DNA of 64,000 nucleotides from positions 42,766-106,765 of the IMG/VR virus record IMGVR_UViG_3300023276_000007, one strand, 5' to 3'. Below, piece by piece: positions 7,026 to 51,105 of the stretch. Origin of the DNA: a virus. The notes beneath the pieces are model-generated. The model did no database searches and was not told where the DNA came from. It was given only the letters and a program-made list of their open reading frames with translations. The translations under genes and the position numbers were made by a program. Each line of letters begins with the position of its first letter. The first letter of the stretch is position 1.

Positions 7026-7027
7026 CT

Positions 7028-9421: not shown

Positions 9422-9431
9422 TGGAGGAATT

Positions 9432-17825: not shown

Positions 17826-17837
17826 TGGAGTAACGAC

Positions 17838-20519: not shown

Positions 20520-21415
20520 TGAGTAACGTACTTGAATGGCTAAATGAGAACTCCTTAAGAGCTTACCCTTTTAAGGAAGATACCTCGCGCTCCGATGGTA
20601 CGCATGTTATCCCTAACGACCTTATAGTTGATATGGCCTTCGTCGTACCCGTTGCTACCACAGACACGTTCTACCTTAAAACTTTAATGATATCAGGAAC
20701 ACAGATTACAGGTGTTCTTGCTAATCAAAACGAGAATAACGTAGGAACGTTCTCAGTACCTGTAACTTCTCATAAAGAGAATGACGGCTACGAGATAGTA
20801 GGCGCTGGTACATACACGGATGCCAGAGGTAGAGTTGTTGTAGGAGACCTTACGGATCTTGCTATAAAACTTCCAGAAGGTGTTTATAACTATGAAGTAG
20901 AAGCTACAGCCTTTGAGCTTTCTGCTATCCGACCTGACCTTCGTAAGCTTAGGGGTATAAAGATAGAAAAGGCCGATGGGTCTGTATCCGACTTATTAAC
21001 CGGTATAGTGACTCTGGTGTCAGGAACAAACGTAACTTTAGAAAACCCTTCAGCAGGTCTTGTAAGAATCAATGCTATTGGTAACGAAGACTATATAGAA
21101 GACTGTGGAGATTGCCTTAACGGATTCTCTATACCTGACCCGATAAGAACTATTAACGGAGTGGGTGGAGACGAAACTGGCAATCTAAATTTAATCTCTA
21201 CGGAGCAGTGTTTAGTAATAACCCCAGACGCATCAAACTTTGCAGTTAATCTTGCAGATACTTGTGCGCAGCCTTGTTGTGGCTGTACGGAGTTGGAATT
21301 CTTAACGACGTCATTGTCTACATTGAGAGATAGCCTCTCTAGACTTGATAACCTGTCCCAAGAGTTACAAGGTAGACAAACGGAGTTTTTCCAGAACGTA
21401 CTAAGCTCACTATGA
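20519..21415 (+). CDS. YPF-module protein 1 (tandem paralogue family)
   Basis: A 298-residue protein, first of five adjacent genes sharing an N-terminal W...N..R.YPF.E......lPn.li.D module. Here residues 4-33 contain EWLNENSLRAYPFKEDTSRS and VIPNDLIVDM. A middle beta module (VTLVSGTNVTLENPSAG) and a C-terminal module with INGVGGDETGN and clustered cysteines (DCGDCLNGF, PCCGCTELEF) follow, then a coiled-coil-like tail rich in Leu. The gene starts at an overlapping ATG after the 17838 gene. A shared module in a virion-gene cluster suggests a common docking site on the baseplate with different outward parts; that is inference. Confidence 0.65.
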   Translation: MSNVLEWLNENSLRAYPFKEDTSRSDGTHVIPNDLIVDMAFVVPVATTDTFYLKTLMISGTQITGVLANQNENNVGTFSVPVTSHKENDGYEIVGAGTYTDARGRVVVGDLTDLAIKLPEGVYNYEVEATAFELSAIRPDLRKLRGIKIEKADGSVSDLLTGIVTLVSGTNVTLENPSAGLVRINAIGNEDYIEDCGDCLNGFSIPDPIRTINGVGGDETGNLNLISTEQCLVITPDASNFAVNLADTCAQPCCGCTELEFLTTSLSTLRDSLSRLDNLSQELQGRQTEFFQNVLSSL

Positions 21416-22755
21416 TAAACGAAGAGTATTTAACAGGCAACGGGTTGATAGCCTACCCATTTAAAGAAACCTCCCGAGGTTTGACAGGAGATGAGAAATC
21501 GTCTACTGACTCTTGGGCTGCTGGTGAGATCCCTCGTGATGCCATCGTAGACTTCTTTATGTTTGTTAACAGCGATCCAGAATACCTAAGTCTCACGTAC
21601 ATAGCAAGATCTGGTACAGAGATGACGCTAAGATTCACGGACACCAGCTCTGTCGATGTATTCGAGGCTTCCTTTGATCTCTCGTCATTAGTGGAGTACC
21701 AAGCCTTAGTTCTTTTCCAAGACTTGATTGACCCAGATTTGCTGGATATTACAGGGGCTATGACAGTAGGTCCGGGATTACTAACGTTCCCAGACCTTAT
21801 GACTATCTCATTCGATGTTGGTGACGTTATTCTTTTAGAATCAACTACACCTATTAAGACCAACCCGATAACCCAACTTAACGTAGATGCTATAACCGAC
21901 GTCAATGATGACGGTATTATCACTATAAAGGAAGGTTACAATATTGAGATCAATGCTGCAACTGGTGATGATGAAGATACTACAGAGCTGACAATAATTG
22001 CAGGCCCCGGTCTGGGAGAAGGTAAGGTGCCTCCGGAAGCTCAAGTCTCTCCTACGTACCTGACTTCCTTAAACGATGTAGTCAAAGCAAACGCTGATGG
22101 CGCGGTCAATATAGCACAGGCTGATGACTGCCATAGGTTTATAGCTATGCCCAACTCTAATTCTATTGCTATACATAATGATTGCGACCCGTGCTGCGAT
22201 TGTGCAGACTATGCCGGGCCAGTAACTGTCATGGACGGCCAGTGGGAAGAACTGGAGGCACTTAGGATTAGACTCTACGCTGCTATCGATTTATATAATA
22301 CCCACGTACTGCTATGGAATGATGAGCTACTACCTAACATAAGGAAAGTCTACGTTAGTGGTGTGGCTGTTAAGAGTTTCATTGCTGACCGCAATAAGCA
22401 CACAATCAGTGTGAGCGTAATCAATCAAGGCCCGAGTGTTGCTGGTAGGTTCATAATAACGCTACCCGATAATACAGAAGAGGTTCTTAAAGCCGTACTT
22501 GAGAGTGAAAAAGAGTCTCCAAGGAAGTGCGCAGACAGAGAAGAAGATGCGCCAGACCCTATAATTACAGGGCCGCACATTAATGAAGCAGAGGTTAGGG
22601 CTTTCTTTAAACCACTGTGTTACTGTACGACAGCACAGGTTCTTATCGTTCTTAGGATGCCTGTAGAAACCGACCCATCTGAGAACGTCACGATTAGCTT
22701 TGTTGCTGATGAGGGTGACGAAGTATTAGCTACGAAGGTGCTACAATGGAAATGA
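21412..22755 (+). CDS. YPF-module protein 2
   Basis: A 447-residue paralogue overlapping the preceding gene by four bases. Residues 4-16 read EYLTGNGLIAYPF, but the following spacer is longer (TGDEKSSTDSWAAGE) before IPRDAIVDF. A middle module (IITIKEGYNIEINA) aligns with the other copies. The Cys-rich segment (DPCCDCADYAG) follows, then a C-terminal ~170 residue extension with helix (EELEALRIRLYAAIDLY) and an Ig-like/beta end with CADREEDAP and CYCTTAQVLI. It is the longest of the five, so the C-terminal addition is specific to it. Confidence 0.65.
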   Translation: MINEEYLTGNGLIAYPFKETSRGLTGDEKSSTDSWAAGEIPRDAIVDFFMFVNSDPEYLSLTYIARSGTEMTLRFTDTSSVDVFEASFDLSSLVEYQALVLFQDLIDPDLLDITGAMTVGPGLLTFPDLMTISFDVGDVILLESTTPIKTNPITQLNVDAITDVNDDGIITIKEGYNIEINAATGDDEDTTELTIIAGPGLGEGKVPPEAQVSPTYLTSLNDVVKANADGAVNIAQADDCHRFIAMPNSNSIAIHNDCDPCCDCADYAGPVTVMDGQWEELEALRIRLYAAIDLYNTHVLLWNDELLPNIRKVYVSGVAVKSFIADRNKHTISVSVINQGPSVAGRFIITLPDNTEEVLKAVLESEKESPRKCADREEDAPDPIITGPHINEAEVRAFFKPLCYCTTAQVLIVLRMPVETDPSENVTISFVADEGDEVLATKVLQWK

Positions 22756-23423
22756 ACACAGAATGGTATAATACTAATGAACACAGGAAGTACCCTGTCG
22801 CTAGTCACGTTTCTACAAAGGACAATGATGGAGACATACTCCCAACATCTCTTATTGCAGACTTGGCTGTGGTTTACAATGACACCGTACCAGCAGGAGA
22901 CGGCCCGTACTTATCCAGTTTAGTTATTGGGCCAGCACTAGTTACTGTGTCTATATCTTTAGATGGAGCGGTGCTAGTGTCTGAGAGTTTCACTAAGCCA
23001 GTCGCTATAAGAAAAGGCCTTCCTCTTAAGGCTAACTCTATAAGTGCCTCTGGTTACATAGTTTTCGGTATCGATATAAATGACACCACAGGTAGCTTCA
23101 GGTTTAGTAGTGCAGCACAGTCTGGACTAGATCCTAAAGCCGCTAGAAAGTTTTCTGCGTTACCCATCACTTCCCTATCTGTAGCGGGGGATTCAGAAGA
23201 ACCTCTTACCGATATTATATCGCTAATACCTAAGGGTCCGATAGACATAACGCATGAAGGTAATAATGTAGTTAGTATATCTTTAAAGCCTGCAGCTAGG
23301 CGAGAGTTCTTAGGTCCATGTGATAATGCCATAAGCCCGGACGGCTGTGGTCCTGCACCTTTGAGAAGAATTAACGGAGTCGGTCCAGACAGTAATGGTA
23401 ATATTTTTATCGAGGTGGAGTAA
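22746..23423 (+). CDS. YPF-module protein 3
   Basis: A 225-residue paralogue starting inside the end of the previous gene, with GAAGGTG upstream. The N-terminal module is diverged (EWYNTNEHRKYPV, phenylalanine replaced by valine) followed by ILPTSLIADLA. The middle strand module is present (PIDITHEGNNVVSISL), and the C-terminus is INGVGPDSNGN, the same turn as in the first paralogue. It lacks the C-terminal coiled coil of copy 1. It is the shortest of the five and has only one cysteine pair (GPCDNAISPDGCG). Confidence 0.6.
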   Translation: MEMNTEWYNTNEHRKYPVASHVSTKDNDGDILPTSLIADLAVVYNDTVPAGDGPYLSSLVIGPALVTVSISLDGAVLVSESFTKPVAIRKGLPLKANSISASGYIVFGIDINDTTGSFRFSSAAQSGLDPKAARKFSALPITSLSVAGDSEEPLTDIISLIPKGPIDITHEGNNVVSISLKPAARREFLGPCDNAISPDGCGPAPLRRINGVGPDSNGNIFIEVE

Positions 23424-24403
23424 TGCCAGCAGAATCAATGTACCAAGAGTGGCAGTCTTCCAACAAAGATAGAGCACACCCATTCTCCGAGAGTGTTACT
23501 ACAATCTCTACAAATGGGATAGAGTTCCCTAATAGAGTATTTACGGATGGTTTCTTCTACCCAATAAACCTTGTAGGCAGCCTATACATCTCAGAGGTCA
23601 ACTATACGGCCAACACTATAACGGTGGCAGACAGCGAGGACGGTTCTGTTAAAGGTATATCCTCTTCCATCTTCGGCTCCGGTAAGCATGAGTTCTATGA
23701 CGAGATAGGCAGATACATAGGTTGCCTTATTGAAGGACCTGCCGCAGCAAACCTAGACGCCGATTATGCCTTTACTGCCGATACTGGATTGCTTGCAGTG
23801 GCAGTAGTTTATGCCCAAAATCAACAAGGTGTACGAGGATTAAAGCTTGAAGACGGCACAGTTCTTACTGGAGAGGTTACCCTTGTAGGTACTGATGGTG
23901 TTGTCTTGACTACCAATAACGATGGTACGATAAAAGTGGATATCGTAGGAACACCTGGTGATCCTAACCTTTTATCCCCTATAATAAAAAACATTGTTGT
24001 ATATGGCAACTGCGTACTACTTGCAACGCAGAACGATAACGTTGCCGACATAATATCTATATATGACCGACCACAGGACATCTGTACAGCTAAGGCAAAC
24101 ATAATTACTCCAGATGGCCTATTTCCTATAGAAGACAGCGATCCTTGTGTAGAGCCGCCAGAGCCTCCAGTATGGGAGCCATGCCCTCCTGCATTAGATC
24201 CTGGGTCACCTATACCGCCATGCGACCATGGAGGTTATTTCTTTTTCAATGCACTATCGCCTGTTATAGATATAAAGGCGTTAGAATACCCAGGTCCAGT
24301 AGTTTCTATAACTGGTGTCGCCTCTTCAGAAAACTTTGAAGAATTAGCTAACCTACTGCCGCCTAGAAGCTTAGGTGCACTTAGATTCAGTATGAAAGGG
24401 TGA
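23423..24403 (+). CDS. YPF-module protein 4
   Basis: A 326-residue paralogue starting in a TAATG overlap with GGTGGAG upstream. The N-terminal module is EWQSSNKDRAHPF, with tyrosine changed to histidine, then IEFPNRVFTDG. The middle module (VRGLKLEDGTVL, GEVTLVGTDGVVLTT) matches copy 1. The C-terminal part has several cysteines and a proline-rich stretch (EPPEPPVWEPCPPALDP) that may be an extended linker ahead of a terminal beta/helix segment. Confidence 0.6.
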   Translation: MPAESMYQEWQSSNKDRAHPFSESVTTISTNGIEFPNRVFTDGFFYPINLVGSLYISEVNYTANTITVADSEDGSVKGISSSIFGSGKHEFYDEIGRYIGCLIEGPAAANLDADYAFTADTGLLAVAVVYAQNQQGVRGLKLEDGTVLTGEVTLVGTDGVVLTTNNDGTIKVDIVGTPGDPNLLSPIIKNIVVYGNCVLLATQNDNVADIISIYDRPQDICTAKANIITPDGLFPIEDSDPCVEPPEPPVWEPCPPALDPGSPIPPCDHGGYFFFNALSPVIDIKALEYPGPVVSITGVASSENFEELANLLPPRSLGALRFSMKG

Positions 24404-24407
24404 TGAT

Positions 24408-25298
24408 ATGATACTTAACTGGGAAAACCTTAATAGATTTAGAAGCTACCCGTTTAAAGAGGATGCTTCTCGTAAAGACACGACAGACGCCCTAACATTG
24501 CCTAACGACTTTTTAGTTGCGTTCACTGCATCCTTCTATGGGAGTGCGGGTGCTACTATTATTCTTAGGACGCTAGACGTTGCTGTTGGTGGCGCAAGTT
24601 TGACTGCAACGTTCTTAGTTAACGGGGTGACTCCTGCTGCAGTAACTATACCTTCTGGCGCTGCATACCCATTCAACACAGAATATGTGGTTCAGTCGGG
24701 AAGCTTCTCTACTATAAGAGTAACCCCTATCTTCGGGCCGGGTGTTGATATCATTTTAGCCAACGCCACATACCATGGGAACATATACACGTTTAACGCC
24801 GAGATAGAGCCATCTCTGGTAGCTAGCCCATACAACCATGCGCTAACTAAGCTGATAGCTAAAAACATAGATATAAATGATAATGAGATAATACTGCCGG
24901 ATGTAGGAGAGGGAGCCATAACTTTCATAAATGGTTACAACTCAAAGATTAGCTCCGACGGTACAGACTCTCTGACGTTCAACGCCGCTAAAGGTGCTGG
25001 AGCCGGAGAACCTTGTGATCCTATATATGACCTAGTAGACTGTAGTTGTGGTATATACTTTATAAATGGAAAGCACCCGGACTGGCTAGGTAACTTCTTA
25101 TTTGAAGCGGGTAAATATATGACTGTAATAAACGACCCAAGTAACTTTAAAGTTAAAATTAAAACATCGATCCGTAATGGTACGCCTAAGTGTCAAGATC
25201 CTAATGATGACCCAGGAAGGCTGCCTCCAGAAGAACCGCCGTGCGAACCAGAACCACTACCGGCAGAACTTCCTGTAGAACTTTGCGACAATGAATAG
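24408..25298 (+). CDS. YPF-module protein 5
   Basis: A 296-residue paralogue, with AGGGTGATG before ATG. Its N-terminal module (NWENLNRFRSYPFKEDASR) is the closest match to copy 1, with LPNDFLVAF following. The middle module includes ITFINGYNSKISSDG, and a Cys pair (DCSCGIYFINGKHPD) carries the same ING turn as copies 1 and 3. It ends in a proline-rich, cysteine-containing tail (RLPPEEPPCEPEPLPA). The gene is followed directly by a repeat-built fibre gene. Confidence 0.65.
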   Translation: MILNWENLNRFRSYPFKEDASRKDTTDALTLPNDFLVAFTASFYGSAGATIILRTLDVAVGGASLTATFLVNGVTPAAVTIPSGAAYPFNTEYVVQSGSFSTIRVTPIFGPGVDIILANATYHGNIYTFNAEIEPSLVASPYNHALTKLIAKNIDINDNEIILPDVGEGAITFINGYNSKISSDGTDSLTFNAAKGAGAGEPCDPIYDLVDCSCGIYFINGKHPDWLGNFLFEAGKYMTVINDPSNFKVKIKTSIRNGTPKCQDPNDDPGRLPPEEPPCEPEPLPAELPVELCDNE

Positions 25299-25308
25299 GA
25301 GCTGAACA

Positions 25309-27702
25309 ATGGCACAAGGACTTATAACATATAATACAAAGGTCGACAATGACGGAGCTACCGACGAAGGGTTGGTACTACCTCAAGACCTTAATGATAT
25401 TAAAAACATAGTTAATCAAAACTCGGCAGATGCTGAGTCTAGGTTACAGACCATAGAGTTGGGTACTGTCCAAGGTCCTGGGTCTGCTACGGTAAGTGCT
25501 ATTGCACTATATGATAACGTGTCTGGAAAGATTCTTAAGAACAGCGTTGTCCTAGTCGATGCCTCTGGTAACATCACTGGTATAAATGAGTTAACTCTTA
25601 ATGGTTTTCTTGCTATGCAAGAAGGTGCCTCCCCATCTACACCAGCGTCAGGCTACGGGGTTCTTTACACAAAGTCCTCTGACTCAGGACTTTATTATAA
25701 AAATGACGGCGGCACAGAATTTAATGTCCTCGACACAGGCCCAATCGGAAATGTTGTCGGCCCAGGGTCTTCTACAGATACCGCCTTAGCAAGATTCGAT
25801 TTAGCTACCGGAGAATTACTACAAGACAGTGTGGCGCTACTAAGTGATACTGGAAGACTTACAGGCATAAGCTCTCTAAGCATGTCTGCAGATTTATGTA
25901 TGGATGCGATGAATCCACCAGCCACACCACCAGCAGGTATAGGTTGCCTGTTCGTTAATCTTGCAGATGATAAACTTTACTACGGAAATAACTCTAGCGT
26001 TTTTGACCTAACAGAGGTAGGTGGAGACGCCTCCGGACCAGCATCTTCTACGGATAATGCGTTGGCAAGATTCGATTTAGCTACCGGCAAACTGTTACAA
26101 GACAGTGCGGCTATACTGGACGACGCTGGAAACCTAAGTGGCATCAACGACTTAACTATCTTAAATAACTTTCTAATAGCAGAAGGGGCTGCAGCGCCAA
26201 CACCTGCCTCTGGGTTCATAGCACTGTACGCTAAGTCCGGTGATTCTAAACTTTATTACAAAAATGATGCAGGAACAGAATTTGGGCTAGGCGGAGACGT
26301 TTCAGGCCCAGGTAGTTCCACAGTCAACGCGCTAACAAGATTCTCCACCACTTCAGGTAAGGACATCAAAAGCGGCTCGGCAACTTTAACAGACGCAGGC
26401 GTCTTGGCAGGTATCATAGGAATAGGGCCTGGTGCAGGCAATGACTTAGACGTAACGCTAGGTGATGACGCTGGTGTTAATAAGCTATCTATTAAGAATG
26501 CTTCTAACGCTGAGGTGGCTAGTTTAAATTCTCTAGGAGCCCTCAGCTTGTCTGTCGGGTTGCTGGCAGACTCTGTATCGATGCCAAAGATAGCTTCACC
26601 AACTTACGGCACATTAGAGGATGCAAGTAACCTACTTTCTGGTGTCGGTCTAATAGCCGGTGCTGATTCAATAACAGATGCAGGCGCTGGTGCCGTAGAC
26701 GTGGCTCAACTTGAGTTCCGTATTCGAGCGGCAGATACCGACGTAGGACAAGTACTCTACGGAACAACAGCAGCTGTTGCAGCCTTGGCGTTGACAGACA
26801 ACTCCTTAAACTATTTATATGTAGAATATAACGCAGGCACGCCTCAGGTAGTTGCGACCATTACTAAAAGATCTGACTATAATACCAACGTATACTTAGG
26901 TACGGTATATCGGATAGGTGCGGTGGTACATATTACTAATGGTTTAGCAGTAACTCTAGGGAACCATGCAAGCGTCCTTTTGCGACGTGTTCAAGAAACC
27001 GCCTCAGTTGCGAGAGTTACTGGTATAATTATCTCTGAAACCGGAACAAGAAACTATGCGTTAACTGCAGGTGTAGTATGGCAAGGTCTTGATCGAATAC
27101 TAGTAAATGCCGTCGATACTTCCGGAGGAGATACCTTTGCAGCATTCTATCAAGACGGTGTAGGTGGCTGGACAGAGATTCTGACACAGACTCAGATTAA
27201 TAACACCCAGTTCGATGACGGCACAGGCGTGTTACAATCTTTAACAAATAAGCGTTACGGGGTTCACTGGGAATTTAAAGGGTTAGATGGCCACAACTAT
27301 GTAGTCTTCGGGCGGGGTGACTACAAGTTAAATGAAGCCCAAGCTGCGACTGTTCCGTCAAACTTACCGCCGCACTTTGAGGACCACGCTTTCGTTGTTG
27401 GTAAGATTATTATCAAAAAAGATGACGCAGCGTTCACAGAGGTAGCTACTCCGTTTGTAGATCAGTTTACAGCAAGCGCTCCTGCGAACCACAGTGAACT
27501 TGGGGGGTTAGGGGATGACGACCATACTCAGTACGTATTAACAGACGGAACTAGAGATACTGCGAAGATGTCACTAACTGACGGTATAACCGCTCCAGGG
27601 GTCGTTGTTGGTCTAGCGCAGATATACGTCGACACCGCCGACGGCGACCTTAAAGTAATATTCGGTGATGGTACCGTTAAAACGATAGTAACAGATTCTT
27701 AA
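25309..27702 (+). CDS. Tail fibre, repeat-built
   Basis: A 797-residue protein with GGAG upstream. Residues ~50-370 hold about 3.5 copies of a ~90-residue unit: GPGSST..ALARFDLATGKLLQDS..LLSDTG.L.GI..L..., then P..P.G.GC/..LY...DSKLYYKN..GTEF. This kind of repeat forms the shaft of many phage fibres. The later half is beta-rich with a HSELGGLGDDDHTQYVLTDG motif near residues 725-745 typical of phage fibre C-terminal regions. The N-terminus would attach to the baseplate and the C-terminus contact the host; that order is inferred from the family. Confidence 0.75.
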   Translation: MAQGLITYNTKVDNDGATDEGLVLPQDLNDIKNIVNQNSADAESRLQTIELGTVQGPGSATVSAIALYDNVSGKILKNSVVLVDASGNITGINELTLNGFLAMQEGASPSTPASGYGVLYTKSSDSGLYYKNDGGTEFNVLDTGPIGNVVGPGSSTDTALARFDLATGELLQDSVALLSDTGRLTGISSLSMSADLCMDAMNPPATPPAGIGCLFVNLADDKLYYGNNSSVFDLTEVGGDASGPASSTDNALARFDLATGKLLQDSAAILDDAGNLSGINDLTILNNFLIAEGAAAPTPASGFIALYAKSGDSKLYYKNDAGTEFGLGGDVSGPGSSTVNALTRFSTTSGKDIKSGSATLTDAGVLAGIIGIGPGAGNDLDVTLGDDAGVNKLSIKNASNAEVASLNSLGALSLSVGLLADSVSMPKIASPTYGTLEDASNLLSGVGLIAGADSITDAGAGAVDVAQLEFRIRAADTDVGQVLYGTTAAVAALALTDNSLNYLYVEYNAGTPQVVATITKRSDYNTNVYLGTVYRIGAVVHITNGLAVTLGNHASVLLRRVQETASVARVTGIIISETGTRNYALTAGVVWQGLDRILVNAVDTSGGDTFAAFYQDGVGGWTEILTQTQINNTQFDDGTGVLQSLTNKRYGVHWEFKGLDGHNYVVFGRGDYKLNEAQAATVPSNLPPHFEDHAFVVGKIIIKKDDAAFTEVATPFVDQFTASAPANHSELGGLGDDDHTQYVLTDGTRDTAKMSLTDGITAPGVVVGLAQIYVDTADGDLKVIFGDGTVKTIVTDS
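25465..26440 (+). repeat. Tandem ~90-residue fibre repeats
   Basis: Three full and one partial unit begin at about 25465, 25750, 26025 and 26296. Protein identity between units is high (for example ALARFDLATGELLQDS and ALARFDLATGKLLQDS), with diverged third positions, so the repeat is ancient rather than a fresh duplication. Confidence 0.7.
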
Positions 27703-28262: not shown

Positions 28263-30425
28263 ATGGCACGACAACCTTTTGAGTATGGCCCCGATTGTGA
28301 TGGCCCTGATGTAGATATTAACATAATACCTACATCTTTCCCATTGTGTGATGAAGTCGTCTTTGAAGATCCTGACTTACTACCCACCTGCACCGACTTT
28401 GAGACTGTAGATTTTATAGTTCCCCCAGTCTGCCCATGTTTCCCTGAACGTATGGGTCTTACTGATAACTCGAATGCAAGTATTGCTTGTGGCGGGCCTC
28501 TACCTTCAATAACCTTTGATGCAGCTATCGTTAACGTAGCACCGGACGACTGCTGTGCTCCAGAGTTTAAGCTTGATATACAGTTAGATATACAAGTACC
28601 TTGTGTAGGTGCTGTCGGAGGCTGTGCCGCTATAGTTGGTCAAGTTGACATCAAAATTGATGAAGGTCCGCTTGGATGGTTCTTTGATTGGGAAAAATGT
28701 ATCGATGACCAAGGTAACATTATAAACGACCCCTGCTGTATTCGGCTAGTGGGTGAGATGTTTATACCTTGTATAGACGGTATAACATTTAAAGTTGAAC
28801 ATAATATCCAAGAGACCGGTGCAGTAGATATCCCTACCATCGAGGAGTTTACTATAGAAGCGTCTGATGACGTTCCATGTGAATACGATGTAGTATTCGA
28901 CATGCTAGTTCCTTTACCAGAGGACCCTACAATACCTATAAGCCCTACAGACCCAAATATACCACCCGGCCAGAACTGCTGTAATGGTGTAGGTTATTGT
29001 CCCGACGAAGGTACGTTTAGCGACCTAGGAAAAATGAAAACAGAGACTATTTCGGTCGTCACCAATATTACCTGTGATCTGGAAGGTAATTTAACTGTGG
29101 AGAGGACAGAACTTGAGTATGTTTGCGGGCTCCTTAAAGATTTCAGGATAGCTGGGAACGACGCGATTCCCTGCGCTGGGGCTCAGTCGTACAATGAGGA
29201 TTGCTGTCCAAGCACTACGACGACAGATCCGGACTACCCACCACCAACTACAGAGCCAGGTGAGGGCCCCTATGGCCCGTATATCCCGCCAGAAACCTGT
29301 CAGTGTCGGTGTGACAAATATTACGTGTGTGACAAAGAGACAGGGAAGACAATCCCAGACCTCTATGTTGAGGTTTACGACCTGTCCGGCGATGGTAGCT
29401 GTGCTTACCGTATTGTAGATGGTGACAGTGTAGACGAGAATAACAACGCGGTAATTATGCACGAAGGCCTAGGATGTCCAGACCCTGACGAAAATATATC
29501 TAACGGTTCTACTACGTGGGTTCTAGCGTGTGAACCCTGTAGTGATTGGCCGGATAACAGTACCACGACAACTACTACTACCACGACAACTACTACTACA
29601 CCGCCTATCATCATCGATGAGAAGTACTATTGCGTACAGATCGGTACCGGTGCTCCGAAGCAATGCGTTATCGGTGCAGCACTAGTTCCAGGATCACCAA
29701 TCTCAGCAGGACCTTTCGATAGTGCGTCTGAATGTGCAGCAAACTGTAATACAAACAGCTACGAGTATGAAGAGTGCCCTGCCTCGACAACAACCACAAC
29801 CACGACGACGACAACCACAACCACGACAACCACGACAACCGCGACAACCGCACCTCCTATGGCGGCGGCTTGTGGTACTGACAATGGTCACCCAACTATG
29901 CTAGTCACTATGACTTGGACAGGTGGCCCAGCTACTCGTGATTACATGGGATGTAATGACTGGGAGTCAGGCCAGCAGCGCGTCTTAAATGCCGATACCT
30001 ATGACCGGTACCAGAACACCATGGGTGGTTGCCTAGGTGAAGAAGGTGAATATTGGAGAAAGGGTGCAGACAGTGACGCATTTAACATGTCAGGTTTCGT
30101 AGATTTCTTCGGAGGATTTTTCTGGCAACTTAAGAATGAATATAACGGCGTTGGAGAATTGAACCATGGTACAGCAGCTATTGATGGTTACGTTTATGAT
30201 AGCCTCTCTGCGTTCTCACCAGGGCCAGGCGCGTTTTACCCTTTCGGTAACTCATTCCTAGACGGCCCTTTTGGTGGAAATACCGCCTTCCCTCCGCCGT
30301 CCACAGGCATGAGCGGGTGTTTAACCGGGGCATACCTCGGAGATCTTAAATCTGCACAGCTCAGCGGTAGCGTGACGTTCGCTAACGGTGTTACGGTGAC
30401 GTGGGAACAAGGAACAGGATGGTAA
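28263..30425 (+). CDS. Cysteine-rich, poly-Thr-linked adhesin/stalk protein
   Basis: A 720-residue protein with two parts. The N-terminal ~300 residues are beta-like with many cysteines (for example VCPCFPERM, APDDCC, NDPCC, ENCC). Then come acidic, Cys-rich segments separated by Thr-only runs (13 and 18 residues) and Pro-rich linkers. The final ~170 residues form a module (CGTDNGHPTMLVTMTWTG...GSVTFANGVTVTWEQGTGW) repeated in two other genes here. The Thr runs resemble flexible, possibly glycosylated stalks. A small Cys domain (CVQIGTGAPKQC...SECAANC) sits between them. It is probably a virion adhesin, on position and architecture. Confidence 0.6.
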   Translation: MARQPFEYGPDCDGPDVDINIIPTSFPLCDEVVFEDPDLLPTCTDFETVDFIVPPVCPCFPERMGLTDNSNASIACGGPLPSITFDAAIVNVAPDDCCAPEFKLDIQLDIQVPCVGAVGGCAAIVGQVDIKIDEGPLGWFFDWEKCIDDQGNIINDPCCIRLVGEMFIPCIDGITFKVEHNIQETGAVDIPTIEEFTIEASDDVPCEYDVVFDMLVPLPEDPTIPISPTDPNIPPGQNCCNGVGYCPDEGTFSDLGKMKTETISVVTNITCDLEGNLTVERTELEYVCGLLKDFRIAGNDAIPCAGAQSYNEDCCPSTTTTDPDYPPPTTEPGEGPYGPYIPPETCQCRCDKYYVCDKETGKTIPDLYVEVYDLSGDGSCAYRIVDGDSVDENNNAVIMHEGLGCPDPDENISNGSTTWVLACEPCSDWPDNSTTTTTTTTTTTTTPPIIIDEKYYCVQIGTGAPKQCVIGAALVPGSPISAGPFDSASECAANCNTNSYEYEECPASTTTTTTTTTTTTTTTTTTATTAPPMAAACGTDNGHPTMLVTMTWTGGPATRDYMGCNDWESGQQRVLNADTYDRYQNTMGGCLGEEGEYWRKGADSDAFNMSGFVDFFGGFFWQLKNEYNGVGELNHGTAAIDGYVYDSLSAFSPGPGAFYPFGNSFLDGPFGGNTAFPPPSTGMSGCLTGAYLGDLKSAQLSGSVTFANGVTVTWEQGTGW
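29562..29600 (+). repeat. Poly-threonine linker 1 (13 codons)
   Basis: Thirteen consecutive Thr codons, built from a near-perfect six-codon unit (acc acg aca act act act) repeated twice. All four Thr codons are used in alternation, so the amino acid run is conserved by selection or by unit duplication, not by a mononucleotide slip. Confidence 0.85.
29787..29852 (+). repeat. Poly-threonine linker 2 (18 Thr then ATTA)
   Basis: Eighteen consecutive Thr codons from 29787 to 29840, followed by Ala-Thr-Thr-Ala-Pro-Pro. Units of aca/acc/acg alternate, and slippage would change length in multiples of three without breaking the frame. Confidence 0.85.
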
Positions 30426-30429
30426 ACTT

Positions 30430-31446
30430 ATGAGTAGCTTATTTTTTAAAGACGACCACGGTCAATTTATCAAACACGGCAACAAATGCTACACGAAGGT
30501 AGGTGCCTCTCAGGTTATGCCCGACGTTACAACAGCCCCGGATGGTGGGTCTTCTTTTGTTGATTGCGATGATTGCAACTCTGGTACTACGACCACTACT
30601 ACGACCACTACTACGACAGCCTTATCCGGGTTATCATTTGGGCAAACCAACACTCCTGCAGAAGGCGACCCAGAAAGTACAGTAGTTGGCGACTTAACAC
30701 CTACCGGCGGTACAGGCCCGTTCACGTATGCAATGAAAGCAGGGGCAGGTGATGGTGACAACGGTAGTTATAAGATTGTAGGATCACAGTTACAGTTAAG
30801 CGCGGCACCTAGTATCTCGGAACCGACCGACAGTATACGAGTAGAAGTTACCGATAGCCTAATGGCCACCTTTGACGACACCTTCTCAGTTGATGTATAC
30901 CCAACAACAGGATCTATGACCGTTGAACTAGCAGAAGGTTCACCGCTATACGACGACGCCTCTCCTGGTGAGGACGTAGGTGAAGTATCTGCAGGAACTA
31001 ACTTAGGCGACATAAACGCTGCCAATGGTAATCCATCCACACGACTAGTTTACGTATCAGGACCGGAAGTCTCCTTCTTAGGTAAGGACTGGAGTCCTAA
31101 CGATTACGGCGAGCTCTATACAGACGCAGTTCCGTATTCAGTGCCAGACCAGCACGAGTGGGGTAGTGATACACCTGCCAACCCTGGTTTGTATATGCAC
31201 GACTATCACGAAATGCCTTATGTAGGTGATTATGTGTCTCGGGTATCTTTCCGTATAGATGCAAGTAACCAATTAGACATTACTAACCAGACAACAGGTG
31301 GTACTATTGATAATAGCGTCGGCGTGACCTCTGGTAACGATCCAAACTTATTAGTACCAGATGGAACCATCGACACAGCCGCTTTTCAGGAAGTGACTTT
31401 TGCTAACGGACAAACCTGGAAGTGGCAACAGGAATCTGGATGGTAA
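30430..31446 (+). CDS. Poly-Thr stalk protein with cadherin/Ig-like unit
   Basis: A 338-residue protein starting four bases after the previous gene. The first ~50 residues are Cys-containing (DDCDCN-like), then 11 consecutive Thr, then a ~100-residue beta-sandwich unit (GLSFGQTNTPAEGDPESTVVGDLTPTGG... ending in IRVEVTDSLMATFDDTFSVDV), and a C-terminal module ending VTFANGQTWKWQQESGW. The cadherin-like unit is shared with the two downstream genes. The C-terminal ~NG.T..W...GW ending is shared with the preceding and the 32102 genes. Likely a fibre/adhesin. Confidence 0.6.
   Translation: MSSLFFKDDHGQFIKHGNKCYTKVGASQVMPDVTTAPDGGSSFVDCDDCNSGTTTTTTTTTTTALSGLSFGQTNTPAEGDPESTVVGDLTPTGGTGPFTYAMKAGAGDGDNGSYKIVGSQLQLSAAPSISEPTDSIRVEVTDSLMATFDDTFSVDVYPTTGSMTVELAEGSPLYDDASPGEDVGEVSAGTNLGDINAANGNPSTRLVYVSGPEVSFLGKDWSPNDYGELYTDAVPYSVPDQHEWGSDTPANPGLYMHDYHEMPYVGDYVSRVSFRIDASNQLDITNQTTGGTIDNSVGVTSGNDPNLLVPDGTIDTAAFQEVTFANGQTWKWQQESGW
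30586..30618 (+). repeat. Poly-threonine linker 3 (11 codons)
   Basis: Eleven consecutive Thr codons in a three-codon-type pattern (act acg acc act repeated), joining the N-terminal part of the 30430 protein to its Ig-like unit. Confidence 0.85.
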
Positions 31447-31488
31447 GTATGTATAACTTAAAAACAATAAAACTATAGAGGAATTAAC

Positions 31489-32076
31489 ATGGCCATTACA
31501 TATACAATAGAAGCAGACCCTACCGCAGGCGGAAACGATGCGAATAACGCAGACTTTGACATAGAGAATCCAGACGTACTGGAGCTGTCCTCTAATGCAC
31601 CTTTAGCAGGCGGTAGTTATAAAGTTACAGTAAAAGCTGTTGATGGCGTATCTGGTGAGTTTGGCTATGGCTTCTTTACGGTAGTAATCAACCCTAGAAT
31701 CACAGCCCTAACACTGAATCAGACTAACGTACCTATCGTTGGCGATTCTGCAGGTACTCTTGTTGGTGACCTTCAAGTTACTGGCGGTACTGCTCCGTTC
31801 ACGTTTGCTTTAGTAGCAGGTGCAGGAGATGGAGATAACGGTAACTATCAAGTAAACGTTGCTGATATTGAAGTAAAGGCTGCGGCTGTCTTGACAGACC
31901 CAACTGACGCAATAAGAGTAGAAGTTACTGATGCGGCGGGTGACACGTTTGAGCAAGCACTCACAGTCAACGTACAACCAGTAACAGGAACTCTGACAGT
32001 TATATTGACTCTAGGATCTCCACTATTCGACGACGACAGTCCTACAACAGACGTCGGTACAGTAAGCGCGTCTTAA
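31489..32076 (+). CDS. Short cadherin/Ig-like paralogue, truncated relative to neighbours
   Basis: A 195-residue protein with GAGGAATT before ATG. It has an N-terminal ~70 residues (MAITYTIEADPTAGGN...) nearly the same as the start of the next gene, followed by one cadherin-like unit (LTLNQTNVPIVGDSAGTLVGDLQ). It ends abruptly at GSPLFDDDSPTTDVGTVSAS, where its counterpart in the 30430 gene continues for more than 100 residues. It is therefore a product of duplication with loss of the C-terminal module. Whether it is a working small protein or a relic is open. Confidence 0.6.
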   Translation: MAITYTIEADPTAGGNDANNADFDIENPDVLELSSNAPLAGGSYKVTVKAVDGVSGEFGYGFFTVVINPRITALTLNQTNVPIVGDSAGTLVGDLQVTGGTAPFTFALVAGAGDGDNGNYQVNVADIEVKAAAVLTDPTDAIRVEVTDAAGDTFEQALTVNVQPVTGTLTVILTLGSPLFDDDSPTTDVGTVSAS

Positions 32077-32101
32077 CCTAGCGCAGACAAAGGAAGCGTA
32101 A

Positions 32102-33946
32102 ATGGCTATAACATATACAATAGCAGCAGATCCAACGGCGTCGGGAAACGACGCCAATAACTTGGACTTTGAAATAGAGAACCCAGACGTACTGGAGTTA
32201 TCTGCTAACGCCCCTTTGACTGCCGCCACCTATAAGGTAACGGTAAAAGCCGTTGATGGTGTATCTGGTGAATTTGGCTACGGCTTCTTTGACGTAGTAA
32301 TCAACGCGGCTGTCACAGCGCTATCCCTTAATCAAACAAACACCCCTCAGGCGGGTGACCCAGTAGACACTTTAGTAGGTGACCTCCAAGTTACAGGGGG
32401 AACTGCTCCTTACACGTTTGCTTTAGTAGCAGGTGCTGGTGATGGTGACAACACACATTACCAAGTTGATGGTTCTAATATAGAGTTAAGTGCCTCTGGC
32501 GGCACAACAGCCGGAACTGATGCAATAAGAGTAGAAGTTACCGACGATAAAGGCTATACGTTTGAACAATCTTTAACTGTTAATATAGCCGTTGCTCCGA
32601 CCACGACCACTACGGCCGCCGCTACTACGGCACCTCCAGGACCACTAGCCTGTGGAACCCCTAATAGCGACCCTACTATGATCGTTACTATGTCCTGGAC
32701 GGATGTTGATGTAACCAAGAGTTACCTAGGGTGTACCTGGACTAATGGGGAAACTAAAGAATTATATACCACCTTCTATCAGGCAGTGGTTGGATCGCTG
32801 GAAACGTGGCGTAGAGATGCAGGACCAGACCCACAACTGTTTCATTTACACGGTAATGAATATTATCCGGGGACAGCCCCCTCCCTCTACGAAACCATAT
32901 TGGGAGGAGCTAGTATCGGCGTAGTATATCATACTAATTATAGACTTCAGATCTTTAAGGATTCAACTTTTACAGGATCCTCTGGCAATGTAGGAGTAAG
33001 TGCGTCCTCCCCGACAGCGGGTGCTCTAGTTACGGGTGCCCCTATAGCCCCAAGTCATAAAAGTGGTTCGGTCACTTTCACGAATGGCATCACCGTAAGT
33101 TGGGGGGAAGGTAACTTATGGCCACCACCGATTACGGATATAACCCTTAACCAGACTAATACACCGACAGAGGGTGACCCAGTAGCTACTTTGATTGGTG
33201 ACTTAACACCGACAGGTGGTACTGCATCATTTACGTATGCACTGGTAGCTGGTACCGGAGACACTGATAACTCTCATTACCAAATAACCGGCGCTAACCT
33301 AGAGTTAAGTGCCTCTGGTGGCTCAACATCCTTAACAGACTCAGTACGTATAGAAGTGACTGATGCGACTGGACGTAAATTCGAGAAGGCCTTTACTGTG
33401 ACAGTCGACCCCGTACCTATGGCAAGCCCTTGTTTACCAGACCTCGGACATCCGTCTATGCTAGTAACACTGTCCTGGACAGGAGGACCAGCCACTAGGA
33501 CATTCTTAGGGTGTACTGATTGGGCACCAGGACAACAGCGCGTAGTGAACGCAACTGGCTATAACTTAACTTACACGCCGACCACCGCAGTATCTGGCGT
33601 TAATTCTGCTGGATGGAATGCTGCCGGCGGTGGCGACGGCGACCTTATTAGATTCGGAGGGACTACCCTTCTAAGCTCATTCTCTAGTAGACAAGCTGGT
33701 AGCGTACGGTTTAACGGTATAGAGGGTGTCATCGGTGCCCCTGCCGACCCAACCTTCTCAATCTTTCGAGTTGACTTTAAATCCTTTACTGGCTACAACG
33801 GGAGCTTCAACAACTTAGTTACGGCAGGGTTCAGTCCTACTAAAACTAATGTCGGCGTAGGGGTACCTCTAGACGCCAGTAGAAAGAGCGGCTCAGTTAC
33901 CGATGTAAACGGTATTACGTATAGCTGGCAACCTAACGGCTGGTAG
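32102..33946 (+). CDS. Two-headed adhesin of shuffled Ig-like and GW modules
   Basis: A 614-residue protein with AAAGGAAG before ATG. Order: N-terminal MAITYTIAADPT module (~70 residues), cadherin-like unit, short Thr/Ala linker (PTTTTTAAATTAPP), GW module (CGTPNSDPTMIV ... SVTFTNGITVSWGEG), a second cadherin-like unit (LNQTNTPTEGDPVATLIG), then a second GW module ending DVNGITYSWQPNGW. Two complete linker-unit-head blocks in one chain imply internal duplication. GW modules share paired cysteines. Role is inferred as receptor binding. Confidence 0.62.
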   Translation: MAITYTIAADPTASGNDANNLDFEIENPDVLELSANAPLTAATYKVTVKAVDGVSGEFGYGFFDVVINAAVTALSLNQTNTPQAGDPVDTLVGDLQVTGGTAPYTFALVAGAGDGDNTHYQVDGSNIELSASGGTTAGTDAIRVEVTDDKGYTFEQSLTVNIAVAPTTTTTAAATTAPPGPLACGTPNSDPTMIVTMSWTDVDVTKSYLGCTWTNGETKELYTTFYQAVVGSLETWRRDAGPDPQLFHLHGNEYYPGTAPSLYETILGGASIGVVYHTNYRLQIFKDSTFTGSSGNVGVSASSPTAGALVTGAPIAPSHKSGSVTFTNGITVSWGEGNLWPPPITDITLNQTNTPTEGDPVATLIGDLTPTGGTASFTYALVAGTGDTDNSHYQITGANLELSASGGSTSLTDSVRIEVTDATGRKFEKAFTVTVDPVPMASPCLPDLGHPSMLVTLSWTGGPATRTFLGCTDWAPGQQRVVNATGYNLTYTPTTAVSGVNSAGWNAAGGGDGDLIRFGGTTLLSSFSSRQAGSVRFNGIEGVIGAPADPTFSIFRVDFKSFTGYNGSFNNLVTAGFSPTKTNVGVGVPLDASRKSGSVTDVNGITYSWQPNGW

Positions 33947-33948
33947 TT

Positions 33949-34446
33949 ATGGATAATCACGGAGTGACGATACATCTCTACGGGTACCCATGCTCCGGTA
34001 AAACTACGATAGGTGGTTCGTTAGCTAAAGCATTAGGTAGAACTATAATCCTAGATGGCGACTATGTAAGAAAACATATAAGCAAAGACTTAGGATTTTC
34101 TAAGAAGGACCGTATAGAGAACGCCCGCAGAATAGGTAGCTATACCTCCCTATTAAACGACCAAGGGTTTAATGCGGTAGTATGTACAGTAGCTCCTCAT
34201 AAGAAGTGTCGAAGACTAATACGCGACCACGTCAAGTACTACACCTCTGTGTTTATAGACACACCTTTAAAGGATTGTATAATGCGTGACACTAAAGGTA
34301 TGTACAAGAAGGCTGTGTCCGGAGAGATACAAAATTTTACAGGAGTACATTCTTTTATAGATAGAGGTACACCCGACATCGTAGTAACACCTGGGCCAGT
34401 ACATCTTCAAGTCCAGTACATAATTTCACAATTGGCTGGAAATTAA
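33949..34446 (+). CDS. cysC: Adenylylsulfate (APS) kinase
   Basis: A 165-residue protein with the APS kinase fold signature in order. Walker A at residues 12-20 (GYPCSGKTT); the APS-binding LDGDYVRKHISKDLGFS at 35-51, with D36, D38 and R41 and then KKDRIENARRIG; later the RDTKGMYKKAVSGEIQNFTGV stretch at about residues 112-132. The enzyme phosphorylates APS with ATP to give PAPS, the sulfate donor. It is about 35 residues shorter than typical bacterial CysC, mainly in the region between the motifs. ATP sulfurylase is not in the window, so APS would come from the host. It lies directly upstream of a sulfotransferase gene. Confidence 0.9.
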   Translation: MDNHGVTIHLYGYPCSGKTTIGGSLAKALGRTIILDGDYVRKHISKDLGFSKKDRIENARRIGSYTSLLNDQGFNAVVCTVAPHKKCRRLIRDHVKYYTSVFIDTPLKDCIMRDTKGMYKKAVSGEIQNFTGVHSFIDRGTPDIVVTPGPVHLQVQYIISQLAGN

Positions 34447-34447
34447 G

Positions 34448-34500
34448 TACTAACTGTTTATACTAACTACACTAATACGAAAACAAAAAAGGTACTAACT
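34448..34500 (+). repeat. Three copies of TACTAACT before the sulfotransferase start
   Basis: The octamer TACTAACT occurs at 34448-34455, 34461-34468 and 34493-34500, the last abutting the ATG at 34501. The 54-base gap also contains TTTATACT. It may be a binding site cluster or chance AT-rich sequence. Confidence 0.4.
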
Positions 34501-35625
34501 ATGTTGAATATCGTAAGCGGTTGTCCTCGCTCTGGGACTAGTCTATTAATGAACGTCATGCTCTCCATCTTTGGTGAAAAAAACATTATGGGTGGTGGCA
34601 AGCCCAACCTTGACTTTGACTACGACGCTGAGCTTGCTAAGCTAAGCAACAGAGAACAGGCTATGGTTTGGTCTCAAGAGAGAGCCTTAGCTGCAAAAGG
34701 CCAGACGAGAGAAAAGAGGTTGGAGATACAAGCGAAAACTATGGATCTTAACCCCAACGGGTTCTTCGAGTGTCAGTACAGCGTTCAAGGTATTTCCTAT
34801 AACTACCCAGACCGCGAGCAACTTAAAAAGTATGTTAGCGACGGCGGGGATAAACTATGCATGAAAATAGTCTCCAGTGGTCTGCGGGTTAGTGACCCAA
34901 GGTTTATTGGGAAGGTAGTCTACCTTATAAGACATCCTAGGTCTGTAGCTAAAAGCCAAGAAAGGCTACGTACGCAGCTTGATATGCTTTTTGAATCAAA
35001 CCCTGGTTATGAGGATATGAAGCAAAAGATGGTTATACATTCCCCGCGTATGTATATCAACTCTACAAGAGCAGCTTCCGAGTTTTTCCTAGAGAATCCA
35101 GACATACCTGTTCATCCATTACACTACGACGAGCTCATTGCTACTCCTGAGAAAGTTATTAAAGACTTAGCGGGATTCTTGGGTAAGAACAAAAAAACCG
35201 TATGGTCTAAGGCTAAAGGTATCGTAGATCCTAAGTTAAAGAGAAGTTACCCTGAAGATATCGAAAGTGACCTATGGGAAGACGCAGAAGAGGTTTACCG
35301 ACTTTTTGATAAGCAAGACTACCAAGGCGTTGTCGACTACCTCAAGCCTATGCACAGAAACACTAATCAAGCAAACTCTAATTGGGTATGTGCACGTAAC
35401 GGTATTCTGACTAACAAGGCACAGTGTACAAACTGCATCAATAATGAAACCGTAAGAACCAACTTTAAAAAAGCAGCTAACGAGAAGAAGATTGATTGGC
35501 GTAATGAGCCTTGCCTCTTTGAGTGCGGTATGAACCTCTCCTTAGAAGACGATAAGGTACTTACCTTAGAAGAAAGCACCAAGAATAACTTCTGGAGAGC
35601 AGGTGCTGAAAGGCTGGTTAAATGA
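34501..35625 (+). CDS. PAPS-type sulfotransferase with Cys-rich tail
   Basis: A 374-residue protein. Residues 7-17 (GCPRSGTSLLM) form the 5'-PAPS phosphate loop typical of sulfotransferases. A second PAPS motif follows at 141-152 (YLIRHPRSVAKS), whose R144 and S152 match the 3'-phosphate-binding Arg and Ser, and HYDELIATPEKVIKDLAGFLG is the usual C-terminal core helix region. A C-terminal extension (residues ~295-374) has clustered cysteines (WVCARNG, QCTNCINN, CLFECGM) that could bind zinc. It would transfer sulfate from the PAPS made by the upstream kinase to a carbohydrate or protein tyrosine. Neither substrate is visible in the sequence. Confidence 0.85.
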   Translation: MLNIVSGCPRSGTSLLMNVMLSIFGEKNIMGGGKPNLDFDYDAELAKLSNREQAMVWSQERALAAKGQTREKRLEIQAKTMDLNPNGFFECQYSVQGISYNYPDREQLKKYVSDGGDKLCMKIVSSGLRVSDPRFIGKVVYLIRHPRSVAKSQERLRTQLDMLFESNPGYEDMKQKMVIHSPRMYINSTRAASEFFLENPDIPVHPLHYDELIATPEKVIKDLAGFLGKNKKTVWSKAKGIVDPKLKRSYPEDIESDLWEDAEEVYRLFDKQDYQGVVDYLKPMHRNTNQANSNWVCARNGILTNKAQCTNCINNETVRTNFKKAANEKKIDWRNEPCLFECGMNLSLEDDKVLTLEESTKNNFWRAGAERLVK

Positions 35626-36560
35626 ACAAACTAACCTGTATTCTAACCTTCTTAAATGAAGGTATAGAAGTCTTTAGGACGGTTAAAAGCATACGGGACA
35701 GTGTAGGGGATACTGTAGATATCTTATTGGTAGACGACTCCAGTACAGATGGGGTGCCCTATAAAGTTGTTGCCAACAAATTTAACTGTGACTATGTGAA
35801 GTCGGATACTCGACAAGGAGTGGCTGGCGCGAGAGATCTTGGAGTGTCTTTAGCTAAGACGCCATACTGTATACTCTTCGATGCCCACATGAGGTTCGAC
35901 AAAAGAAGTAATTGGGCAGAACGAGTTGTAGAAGAAATAGAAAATAACGACAGGCGTATTTACTGCACAACTTGTGTATCCTTGTGGTATCCGTTTATAG
36001 AGCAGTCCCAAAGTGTTACCCACCAAAGAAGCACAGGAGCTTACCTAGCGACATCTTTCAAGGATAGCCACACTAGCCTTGCGGCTAAGTGGATACCGCT
36101 CAAACTAACAGGCGTAGAACCAGTTCCTTTAGTTCTTGGGGCGACCTATGCCTTCTCTGTAGAGTACTACCGTGAGTTGCGAGGTTTAGCCGGCTTGAAG
36201 TATTATGGCAGTGACGAACCTTGGATATCCCTAAAGTCTTGGGCGATAGGTGATGGCTGCGCAGTTATAACAGATGTTAACATAGGCCACCTATTCCGAT
36301 CCAAGCACCCGTATCCAGCGTATGGACTAGACGCCCTCTATAATAAACTTTTTATGGCGGCTGTAGTTTTTCCTAAGAAGACTAAGTGGTTAGAGGACCT
36401 AATGAGGTTGGGCGGCCCAAAGGTAAGTAAGATGTTTAAAGAAAATGAAACTCAGTTTAGGGAAACAAGGTCTTGGTTTGCAGAAGTGGAGAAGCCCGGC
36501 TGGCGGGAGACATTCTCTCAATTGAATGGAGAATTTACTGAACAGGTAATTACGTTATGA
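35622..36560 (+). CDS. Family 2 (GT-A) glycosyltransferase
   Basis: A 312-residue protein overlapping the sulfotransferase stop. The N-terminus TCILTFLNEG, the nucleotide-binding VDDSSTDG at 37-44, and the DXH/DXD-like metal site FDAHMRF around D87-H89 are standard GT2 elements; the DAH form is seen in polypeptide GalNAc transferases among others. No membrane segment is present, so it acts in the cytoplasm, as would suit modification of virion proteins. It transfers a sugar from a nucleotide donor. The sugar and acceptor are not known. Confidence 0.82.
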   Translation: MNKLTCILTFLNEGIEVFRTVKSIRDSVGDTVDILLVDDSSTDGVPYKVVANKFNCDYVKSDTRQGVAGARDLGVSLAKTPYCILFDAHMRFDKRSNWAERVVEEIENNDRRIYCTTCVSLWYPFIEQSQSVTHQRSTGAYLATSFKDSHTSLAAKWIPLKLTGVEPVPLVLGATYAFSVEYYRELRGLAGLKYYGSDEPWISLKSWAIGDGCAVITDVNIGHLFRSKHPYPAYGLDALYNKLFMAAVVFPKKTKWLEDLMRLGGPKVSKMFKENETQFRETRSWFAEVEKPGWRETFSQLNGEFTEQVITL

Positions 36561-37252
36561 ATGAAGTCTACTTAGTAAGCAAACATACTTCCTACCGAAA
36601 TATGGGGCTAATGGAGCAAGAAACGTTACAGAGTGGTTTTGTAGCTGCCTTAGACGGTTATCTTGATGGACCTTTCTTAGAGTCTGGTGTAGTGCCTATG
36701 ATGCAGCTATACACACCCGAAAATGGGATACCTACGGAAGTTGTAGGAACTAACGTGGTCAGCCTTAGCTACTCTGGAAAGGTGCGGAACGCTTTAGATA
36801 AAATATTTAATTACTTCCCAGCAGACCAGGCCGTTGTGGTTAGAGTATTAGGCGCCGACCTTCTTGAAGAACTGACAGCAGATCCAGAGTTCTATGAGAT
36901 TATAGAGGAGTGGGTTAGCAGGGATCGGGGCGTTAGTGTCGTCTACGACGGAGCAGTTGCTTCCCCAAACCACTTGATACCTATCTATACATTTAAAGAT
37001 AAGAAACCTATCCGAAATGATGGTGGTGCGTATGCCTGCGACCTCGACTATCGATGTAAAGACTATAGCCGTAAGGATGAAAGCCATGTTTCCAGAGAAG
37101 TATATTTGAAGAGGTGGAATACTTGTATAGGCTGCCCTGCTATGAAGCAGAGCGGAAAGACCATGCAGTGCTCGCTATGCACCTGCGCAATGAAAATCAA
37201 AGCTAAATGGAAAAGTGCCACCTGCAGTGACAAGGCAAACCGTAAGTGGTAA
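36557..37252 (+). CDS. Cys-rich putative zinc-binding protein of modification cassette
   Basis: A 231-residue protein starting in the stop codon of the GT gene. The first ~170 residues are mixed without a recognised domain. The C-terminus (residues ~185-231) has the pattern C..C...(12)...CSLCTC.MKIKAKWKSATC...KW, a zinc-knuckle-like tail found in a range of phage proteins. The tight overlap with the sulfotransferase and glycosyltransferase suggests it acts in the same pathway, perhaps as an acceptor-recognition protein, but this is inference. Confidence 0.6.
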   Translation: MNEVYLVSKHTSYRNMGLMEQETLQSGFVAALDGYLDGPFLESGVVPMMQLYTPENGIPTEVVGTNVVSLSYSGKVRNALDKIFNYFPADQAVVVRVLGADLLEELTADPEFYEIIEEWVSRDRGVSVVYDGAVASPNHLIPIYTFKDKKPIRNDGGAYACDLDYRCKDYSRKDESHVSREVYLKRWNTCIGCPAMKQSGKTMQCSLCTCAMKIKAKWKSATCSDKANRKW

Positions 37253-51078: not shown

Positions 51079-51105
51079 ATGCACACATTAACTAAGGATA
51101 GCACT

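Follow-up and report, generated by a model that had tools for sequence, protein, structure and literature searches.

A possible self-encoded route to O-glycosylated and sulfated threonine-tract adhesins in a phage

What use would a phage have for its own means of making activated sulfate? The question is raised by a cassette of four genes in the metagenomic IMG/VR viral record IMGVR_UViG_3300023276_000007, of which the 64,000 nucleotides analyzed here ("the window") are bases 42766-106765 of 106,765. The cassette encodes an adenosine 5'-phosphosulfate (APS) kinase, a sulfotransferase dependent on 3'-phosphoadenosine 5'-phosphosulfate (PAPS), a glycosyltransferase (GT) and a cysteine-rich protein, and it sits directly behind adhesin-like genes that carry tracts of threonine. 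Comparative sequence analysis suggests that the phage may O-glycosylate and sulfate these adhesins, its own, with a self-encoded module, a proposition that we judge to be evenly balanced.

The cassette and its enzymes

Nearly all long open reading frames (ORFs) of the window lie on the + strand, including the four of the cassette:

33949-34446, + strand: predicted APS kinase, which would make PAPS (PF01583, solved APS kinases, motifs)
34501-35625, + strand: PAPS-dependent sulfotransferase with an extra C-terminal part (PF13469, PF00685, both PAPS motifs)
35622-36560, + strand: DxH-type GT resembling polypeptide N-acetylgalactosamine (GalNAc) transferases (PF00535, PDB matches, model fold)
36557-37252, + strand: cysteine-rich protein with a C-terminal zinc-ribbon-like domain (phrog_13558)

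These coordinates bear out the tight packing reported in the preliminary description: the sulfotransferase and GT genes overlap by 4 bp, as do those for the GT and the cysteine-rich protein, and 54 bp separate the APS kinase from the sulfotransferase. As read from the ORFs, the cassette lies among structural genes, and the surrounding genes read as a late block. No second instance of the four genes in this exact order came to light in other phages or viral contigs; the check for its recurrence that had been proposed came out negative, and it is the components that recombine. No close relatives of the sulfotransferase, GT or cysteine-rich protein were found in cultured phages, and single-sequence scans of viral contigs with the first two gave no matches.

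None of the three enzymes has lost its active-site motifs. The kinase, first described as having intact catalytic motifs, does have them: it matches PF01583 (E 6.4e-38) and solved APS kinases (1e-27), and its P-loop (GYPCSGKTT), LDGD, RDTKGMY and NFTG motifs are complete, so that the features of the CysC family (a PF01583 match with P-loop, LDGD and RDxKGxY motifs) are all present. Its match to TIGR00455 (1.1e-37, 129.5 bits) falls 9 bits below the curated cut-off of 138.7. Conversion of APS to PAPS is its expected reaction. The sulfotransferase matches PF13469 (9.2e-8) and PF00685 (2e-6), both above cut-off, and carries both of the PAPS-binding motifs ascribed to it, the 5'-phosphosulfate-binding PRSGTS at residue 9 and the 3'-phosphate-binding IRHPRSVAKS at residue 143; motifs and family match together define a PAPS-dependent sulfotransferase.

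The third gene was initially called a GT2 glycosyltransferase. It is a GT-A enzyme with PF00535 as its sole Pfam match (9.9e-16; 312 residues), but "generic GT2" is too broad a label, since its first 15 PDB matches are all polypeptide GalNAc-transferases (best 1.7e-10, residues 4-240 aligned). In its sequence D-A-H replaces D-x-D, GSDE stands where GalNAc-transferases have GGEN, and GHLFR is present; D87, H89, E199 and H223 are invariant in 35 relatives. An AlphaFold model built with those 35 relatives (mean predicted local distance difference test score, pLDDT, 64; first 110 residues mostly 80-95) matches the fold of GalNAc-T2 first, then those of other GalNAc-transferases and of the wall-teichoic-acid enzyme TarP. 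Polypeptide GalNAc-transferases start mucin-type O-glycosylation on threonine. A survey of the GT-A superfamily found the DxH replacement to mark families GT27 and GT60, both of which O-glycosylate polypeptides on serine or threonine (PMC7185993).

Threonine tracts beside DxH glycosyltransferases

If enzymes of the DxH type O-glycosylate polypeptides, the threonine runs of the phage's own adhesins are the likely acceptors. The genes that precede the cassette are as follows:

28263-30425, + strand: adhesin-like structural gene with runs of 13 Thr (~29559-29600) and 18 Thr (~29784-29840), proposed acceptor
30430-31446, + strand: adhesin-like gene with an 11-Thr tract (30586-30618), proposed acceptor
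32102-33946, + strand: adhesin-like gene with an APTTTTTAAATTAPP linker (32594-32638), possible acceptor

The tracts are encoded by mixed ACN codons, and a random draw of 80 viral loci (0.70 Mb) contained no run of 8 or more threonines. The cassette had been placed in the middle of adhesin genes; adhesins do adjoin it, and the threonine runs, with their link to the GT, are newly noted here. We infer that the runs serve as acceptor in this phage.

The pairing of DxH GTs with threonine-rich genes recurs among viral contigs. A scan for poly-Thr yielded at least 80 loci, and among the best 80 a DxH GT lies near the Thr-run gene in five; none judged real was found in 80 random viral loci or in 57 APS kinase loci (visual inspection dismissed the pattern matches in random loci L238 and L254 as false). 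Reciprocal scans were made with two divergent DxH subfamilies, a and b (80 loci each), counting as threonine-rich any ORF with at least 9 Thr in 20 residues. A threonine-rich gene stood immediately upstream of the GT in 55/80 loci of subfamily a and 45/80 of subfamily b, and immediately downstream in 1/69 and 1/79, respectively; among random viral ORFs, 5/900 were threonine-rich. Near-identical contigs inflate these raw counts, which were therefore recomputed after de-replication at 70% identity. In subfamily a, the upstream neighbor remained threonine-rich in 13 of 21 loci (p 3e-20 against random ORFs, 2e-4 against downstream genes). In subfamily b, whose members match PF11397, which we take to be the Pfam family of GT60, a threonine-rich ORF occurs within 8 of 14 loci versus 5 of 80 random loci (p 2.5e-5). 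The window GT is the best match among 2,290 targets for the phage DxH profiles, although at 15-17 bits, and its stronger tie, as judged from similarity, is to the GalNAc-transferases rather than to these profiles.

The fourth gene, too, has a link to such loci. It is present as first noted, with only its C-terminal, zinc-ribbon-like domain recognized (phrog_13558, 1.4e-5; no Pfam match). Related small CPxGKW genes occur in 5/80 poly-Thr loci and 0/80 random loci; eight subfamily-b loci have them too, and in several of these they immediately precede the GT. This recurrence near DxH GTs ties the cysteine-rich protein to the GT. In two poly-Thr phage loci, L071:1614-3834 and L134:6244-8153, a PF11397 GT adjoins a radical-SAM-like gene (by eye), and L071 also holds a CPxGKW ribbon gene.

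PAPS supply and the target of sulfation

Four phage APS kinases used as queries retrieved 56 viral loci, and 49 records were examined further. A sulfotransferase (PF13469 or PF00685 at E 1e-3 or better) is present in 15 of the 49. Nine of these 15 fall inside the ~16 kb APS kinase locus, a stretch that covers ~14% of what was searched (p 6e-5; 3e-4 after merging two related records), and in L008, L015, L033, L036 and L047 the sulfotransferase gene is directly upstream of the kinase. PAPS reductase (PF01507) exceeded its cut-off in only 1/49 records, the window's own record being outside this search. The viral gene cysC is commonly listed under sulfate assimilation (PMC12713726), a label that fits poorly given the scarcity of the reductase and the clustering with sulfotransferases. 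Kinase matches OQ572406, MT838634 and MT839805 were dropped as phage evidence for their bacterial-looking context, as was AGRM01, a bacterial record.

Two further observations concern these kinases. In several phages the APS kinase is fused to, or lies beside, a nucleotidyltransferase domain (CTP_transf_like/NMNAT-like, GRWxPxHxGH), which might be an unusual adenylyltransferase for APS supply:

L015:7650-8507, L055:7995-8843, L036:7905-8954 and L046:7659-8528: nucleotidyltransferase-linked APS kinases
L466:5338-5817: nucleotidyltransferase as a separate gene

In a T4-like phage (L006/L007:7929-8498) the APS kinase lies between apparent tail-sheath and tail-tube genes; no PF13469 or PF00685 sulfotransferase was found in that contig.

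All of the component types come together within about 8 kb in L466 (the record of L416, IMGVR 3300042402_004196), a phage unrelated to that of the window:

4063-4881: sulfotransferase
4814-5341: APS kinase
5338-5817: the nucleotidyltransferase given above
6258-6758 and 6768-10508: Thr/Pro-rich genes (TPTPTTTPTNTPTPTNT)
10555-11799: PF11397 GT (DxH)

In L468 a sulfotransferase gene lies between two threonine-rich adhesins, with an APS kinase elsewhere in the same record (L467), and the phage of L036 has a DxH GT in addition to its adjacent sulfotransferase and kinase. Among bacterial metagenome-assembled genomes (MAGs), locus L482 has a DxH GT next to a Sulfotransfer_2 gene and a protein rich in Thr and Ser, and in L481 the GT protein itself has a weak N-terminal Sulfotransfer_2 match and adjoins a threonine-rich protein. 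The MAG loci L481, L482, L485 and L491 encode large proteins that join a DxH GT domain to TPR, PqqD-like or weak sulfotransferase parts, with small threonine-rich proteins bearing a Tat-like signal next to them; they possibly represent a related bacterial glycopeptide system. Overall, sulfotransferases occur in 11/50 DxH-GT records and 1/50 random records, a comparison confounded by record length and not part of the main evidence.

A pathway can be proposed from these parts. The phage APS kinase would convert APS, presumably from host ATP sulfurylase, to PAPS. In the cytoplasm, the DxH GT would transfer an N-acetylhexosamine, probably GalNAc or N-acetylglucosamine (GlcNAc), to the threonine runs of the adhesins at 28263-33946. 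Extension of the sugar may fall to a core-1-galactosyltransferase-like enzyme that is encoded in another part of the genome: a GT31-like protein at contig 1380-2066 (locus L003, outside the window) matches Galactosyl_T (2.4e-10) and a single solved structure, glycoprotein-GalNAc 3-beta-galactosyltransferase 1 (7e-6), the core-1 enzyme that acts after GalNAc-transferase in mucin glycosylation. The sulfotransferase would then sulfate the Thr-linked glycan, giving rigid, negatively charged, mucin-like stalks. Of all this, the sequences show the enzyme families, the motifs, the threonine runs and the gene associations among phages, and the steps themselves are deduced. A further ORF (contig 2060-2713, GGLGNRLNNIF) looked fucosyltransferase-like by eye, and database searches lent this no support.

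Several observations weigh against such a pathway. Both DxH subfamilies were seeded from poly-Thr contigs, and after de-replication a directly adjoining threonine-rich gene remains in only 1/14 subfamily-b loci; XacN1 and RAS14, considered as examples of the link, were set aside because their PF11397 GTs lack a threonine-rich neighbor. The window GT scores low with the phage profiles, as given above, and the APS kinase and sulfotransferase genes lie between it and the Thr-run genes. The structure model of the sulfotransferase is weak (pLDDT 50, template modeling scores of about 0.26-0.3), although its first matches are sulfotransferases, the best being the human tyrosylprotein sulfotransferase TPST2. 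A clear APS kinase is present in only 5/50 DxH-GT records, and threonine-rich ORFs occur at 3/57 APS kinase loci (runs of 8 or more Thr at 0/57); sulfation of Thr-glycans would therefore be one particular form of a broader practice of sulfation among phages.

Of the competing explanations, the one that survives best has the GT glycosylate the adhesins and the sulfotransferase act on other virion targets, such as tyrosines or glycans apart from the threonine runs. The TPST2 match, on its weak model, would suit this, as would the fact that phage APS kinase loci mostly lack threonine-rich genes, whether or not they hold a sulfotransferase. We consider it unlikely in view of the 4-bp overlap of the sulfotransferase and GT genes, the union of threonine-rich adhesins, sulfotransferase, APS kinase and DxH GT in L466, and the adjoining genes of L482; sulfate would more probably go onto the Thr-linked glycan.

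A shade less probable is that the cassette alters host-surface glycans, for receptor masking or exclusion of later phages. Phages are well known, as a general matter, to carry enzymes that change the sugars of the host surface, and in several phage loci, L015 among them, the APS kinase has GT and methyltransferase genes around it. The preliminary description had left the choice between virion and host glycans undecided; the presumed sulfation of the virion itself is favored by the clustering of sulfotransferase with APS kinase and by L466, and the host surface is the less likely target because inspection by eye revealed no membrane anchor in any of the four proteins and the cassette lies among structural genes of an apparent late block. 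The GT is, moreover, of a polypeptide-acting type.

More doubtful again is the reading of the threonine tracts as plain flexible linkers, with another acceptor for the GT and an association due to shared residence in variable adhesin loci. Thr runs are indeed common in viral contigs, and in most of the poly-Thr loci listed the short stretch covered contains no DxH GT. Against this reading stands the one-sided bias, in which a threonine-rich gene lies directly upstream of DxH GTs and almost never downstream, in two divergent subfamilies of which one is PF11397. It is very improbable that the APS kinase serves host sulfur assimilation as an auxiliary metabolic gene and that the sulfotransferase and GT are unrelated passengers, the usual listing of viral cysC notwithstanding, given the rarity of PAPS reductase and the clustered sulfotransferases of the APS kinase records.

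More broadly, self-encoded mucin-type O-glycosylation, in which DxH polypeptide GTs are paired with threonine-rich adhesins, may be widespread in tailed phages, some of which, the present one among them, may finish with phage-made PAPS and a sulfotransferase to yield sulfated, mucin-like virion stalks; this we hold tentatively, as somewhat short of an even chance. No description of a phage system that sulfates Thr-glycans was found in the open-access literature, the range searched. If the proposal is correct, phages have their own equivalent of the mucin glycosylation of animals and trypanosomes, with sulfate added, and views of virion surfaces, phage adhesion and receptor binding would change. 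Many phage GTs and threonine-rich proteins that lack a role would gain one, part of viral cysC would be reassigned from sulfur assimilation to PAPS supply for sulfation, and small soluble enzymes would be at hand for making sulfated O-glycopeptides in bacteria. The function of phage sulfotransferases, stated to be unclear (PMC10580990), becomes directly testable.

Other genes of the phage and comparison with known systems

Contig positions 17378-26353, which lie outside the window, hold genes for parts of a multisubunit RNA polymerase:

L003:17378-19411: beta N-terminal piece
L004:412-2838: beta C-terminal/beta' N-terminal fusion
L004:5494-7353: beta' C-terminal piece

A further piece, a sigma-70-region-3 protein, is encoded within the window (12299-13009). 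The window also holds a stand-alone response-regulator receiver domain (51079-51483).

Among known systems, the closest parallel is mucin-type O-glycosylation by GT27 GalNAc-transferases and GT31 core-1 enzymes. The window GT shares the GT-A domain, the DxH and GHxFR metal-site motifs with the distal histidine, and a GalNAc-transferase-like catalytic domain, and the phage has Thr-rich, acceptor-like tracts and a core-1-like gene. Unlike the eukaryotic enzymes, the phage GT (312 residues, PF00535 only) would be cytoplasmic and shows no sign of the C-terminal ricin-type lectin domain or the Golgi signal anchor, so it is taken to work like GT27 and is not filed as a member. GT60-type enzymes add alpha-GlcNAc to threonine of Trypanosoma cruzi mucins (PMC3769586); phage subfamily b belongs to the corresponding PF11397, and its loci hold threonine-rich genes, whereas the window GT itself does not match that family. 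Che8-type mycobacteriophages have glycosylated capsids (virion glycosylation; PMC11256854), and phage XacN1 has at least two glycoproteins (PMC5852040), as well as a PF11397-type relative, ORF334, that is 46% identical to the L466 GT. They resemble the present phage in encoding GTs, and their virion proteins are glycosylated, as is proposed here; they differ in that no sulfation has been described and the XacN1 GT lacks a threonine-rich neighbor. Sulfotransferases related to that of L466 are found in the cultured cyanophages S-SKS1, S-SCSM1 and S-SRM01, in the last near tail-fibre, GT and sugar-epimerase genes; they differ in that the stretches examined show no annotated APS kinase next to them.

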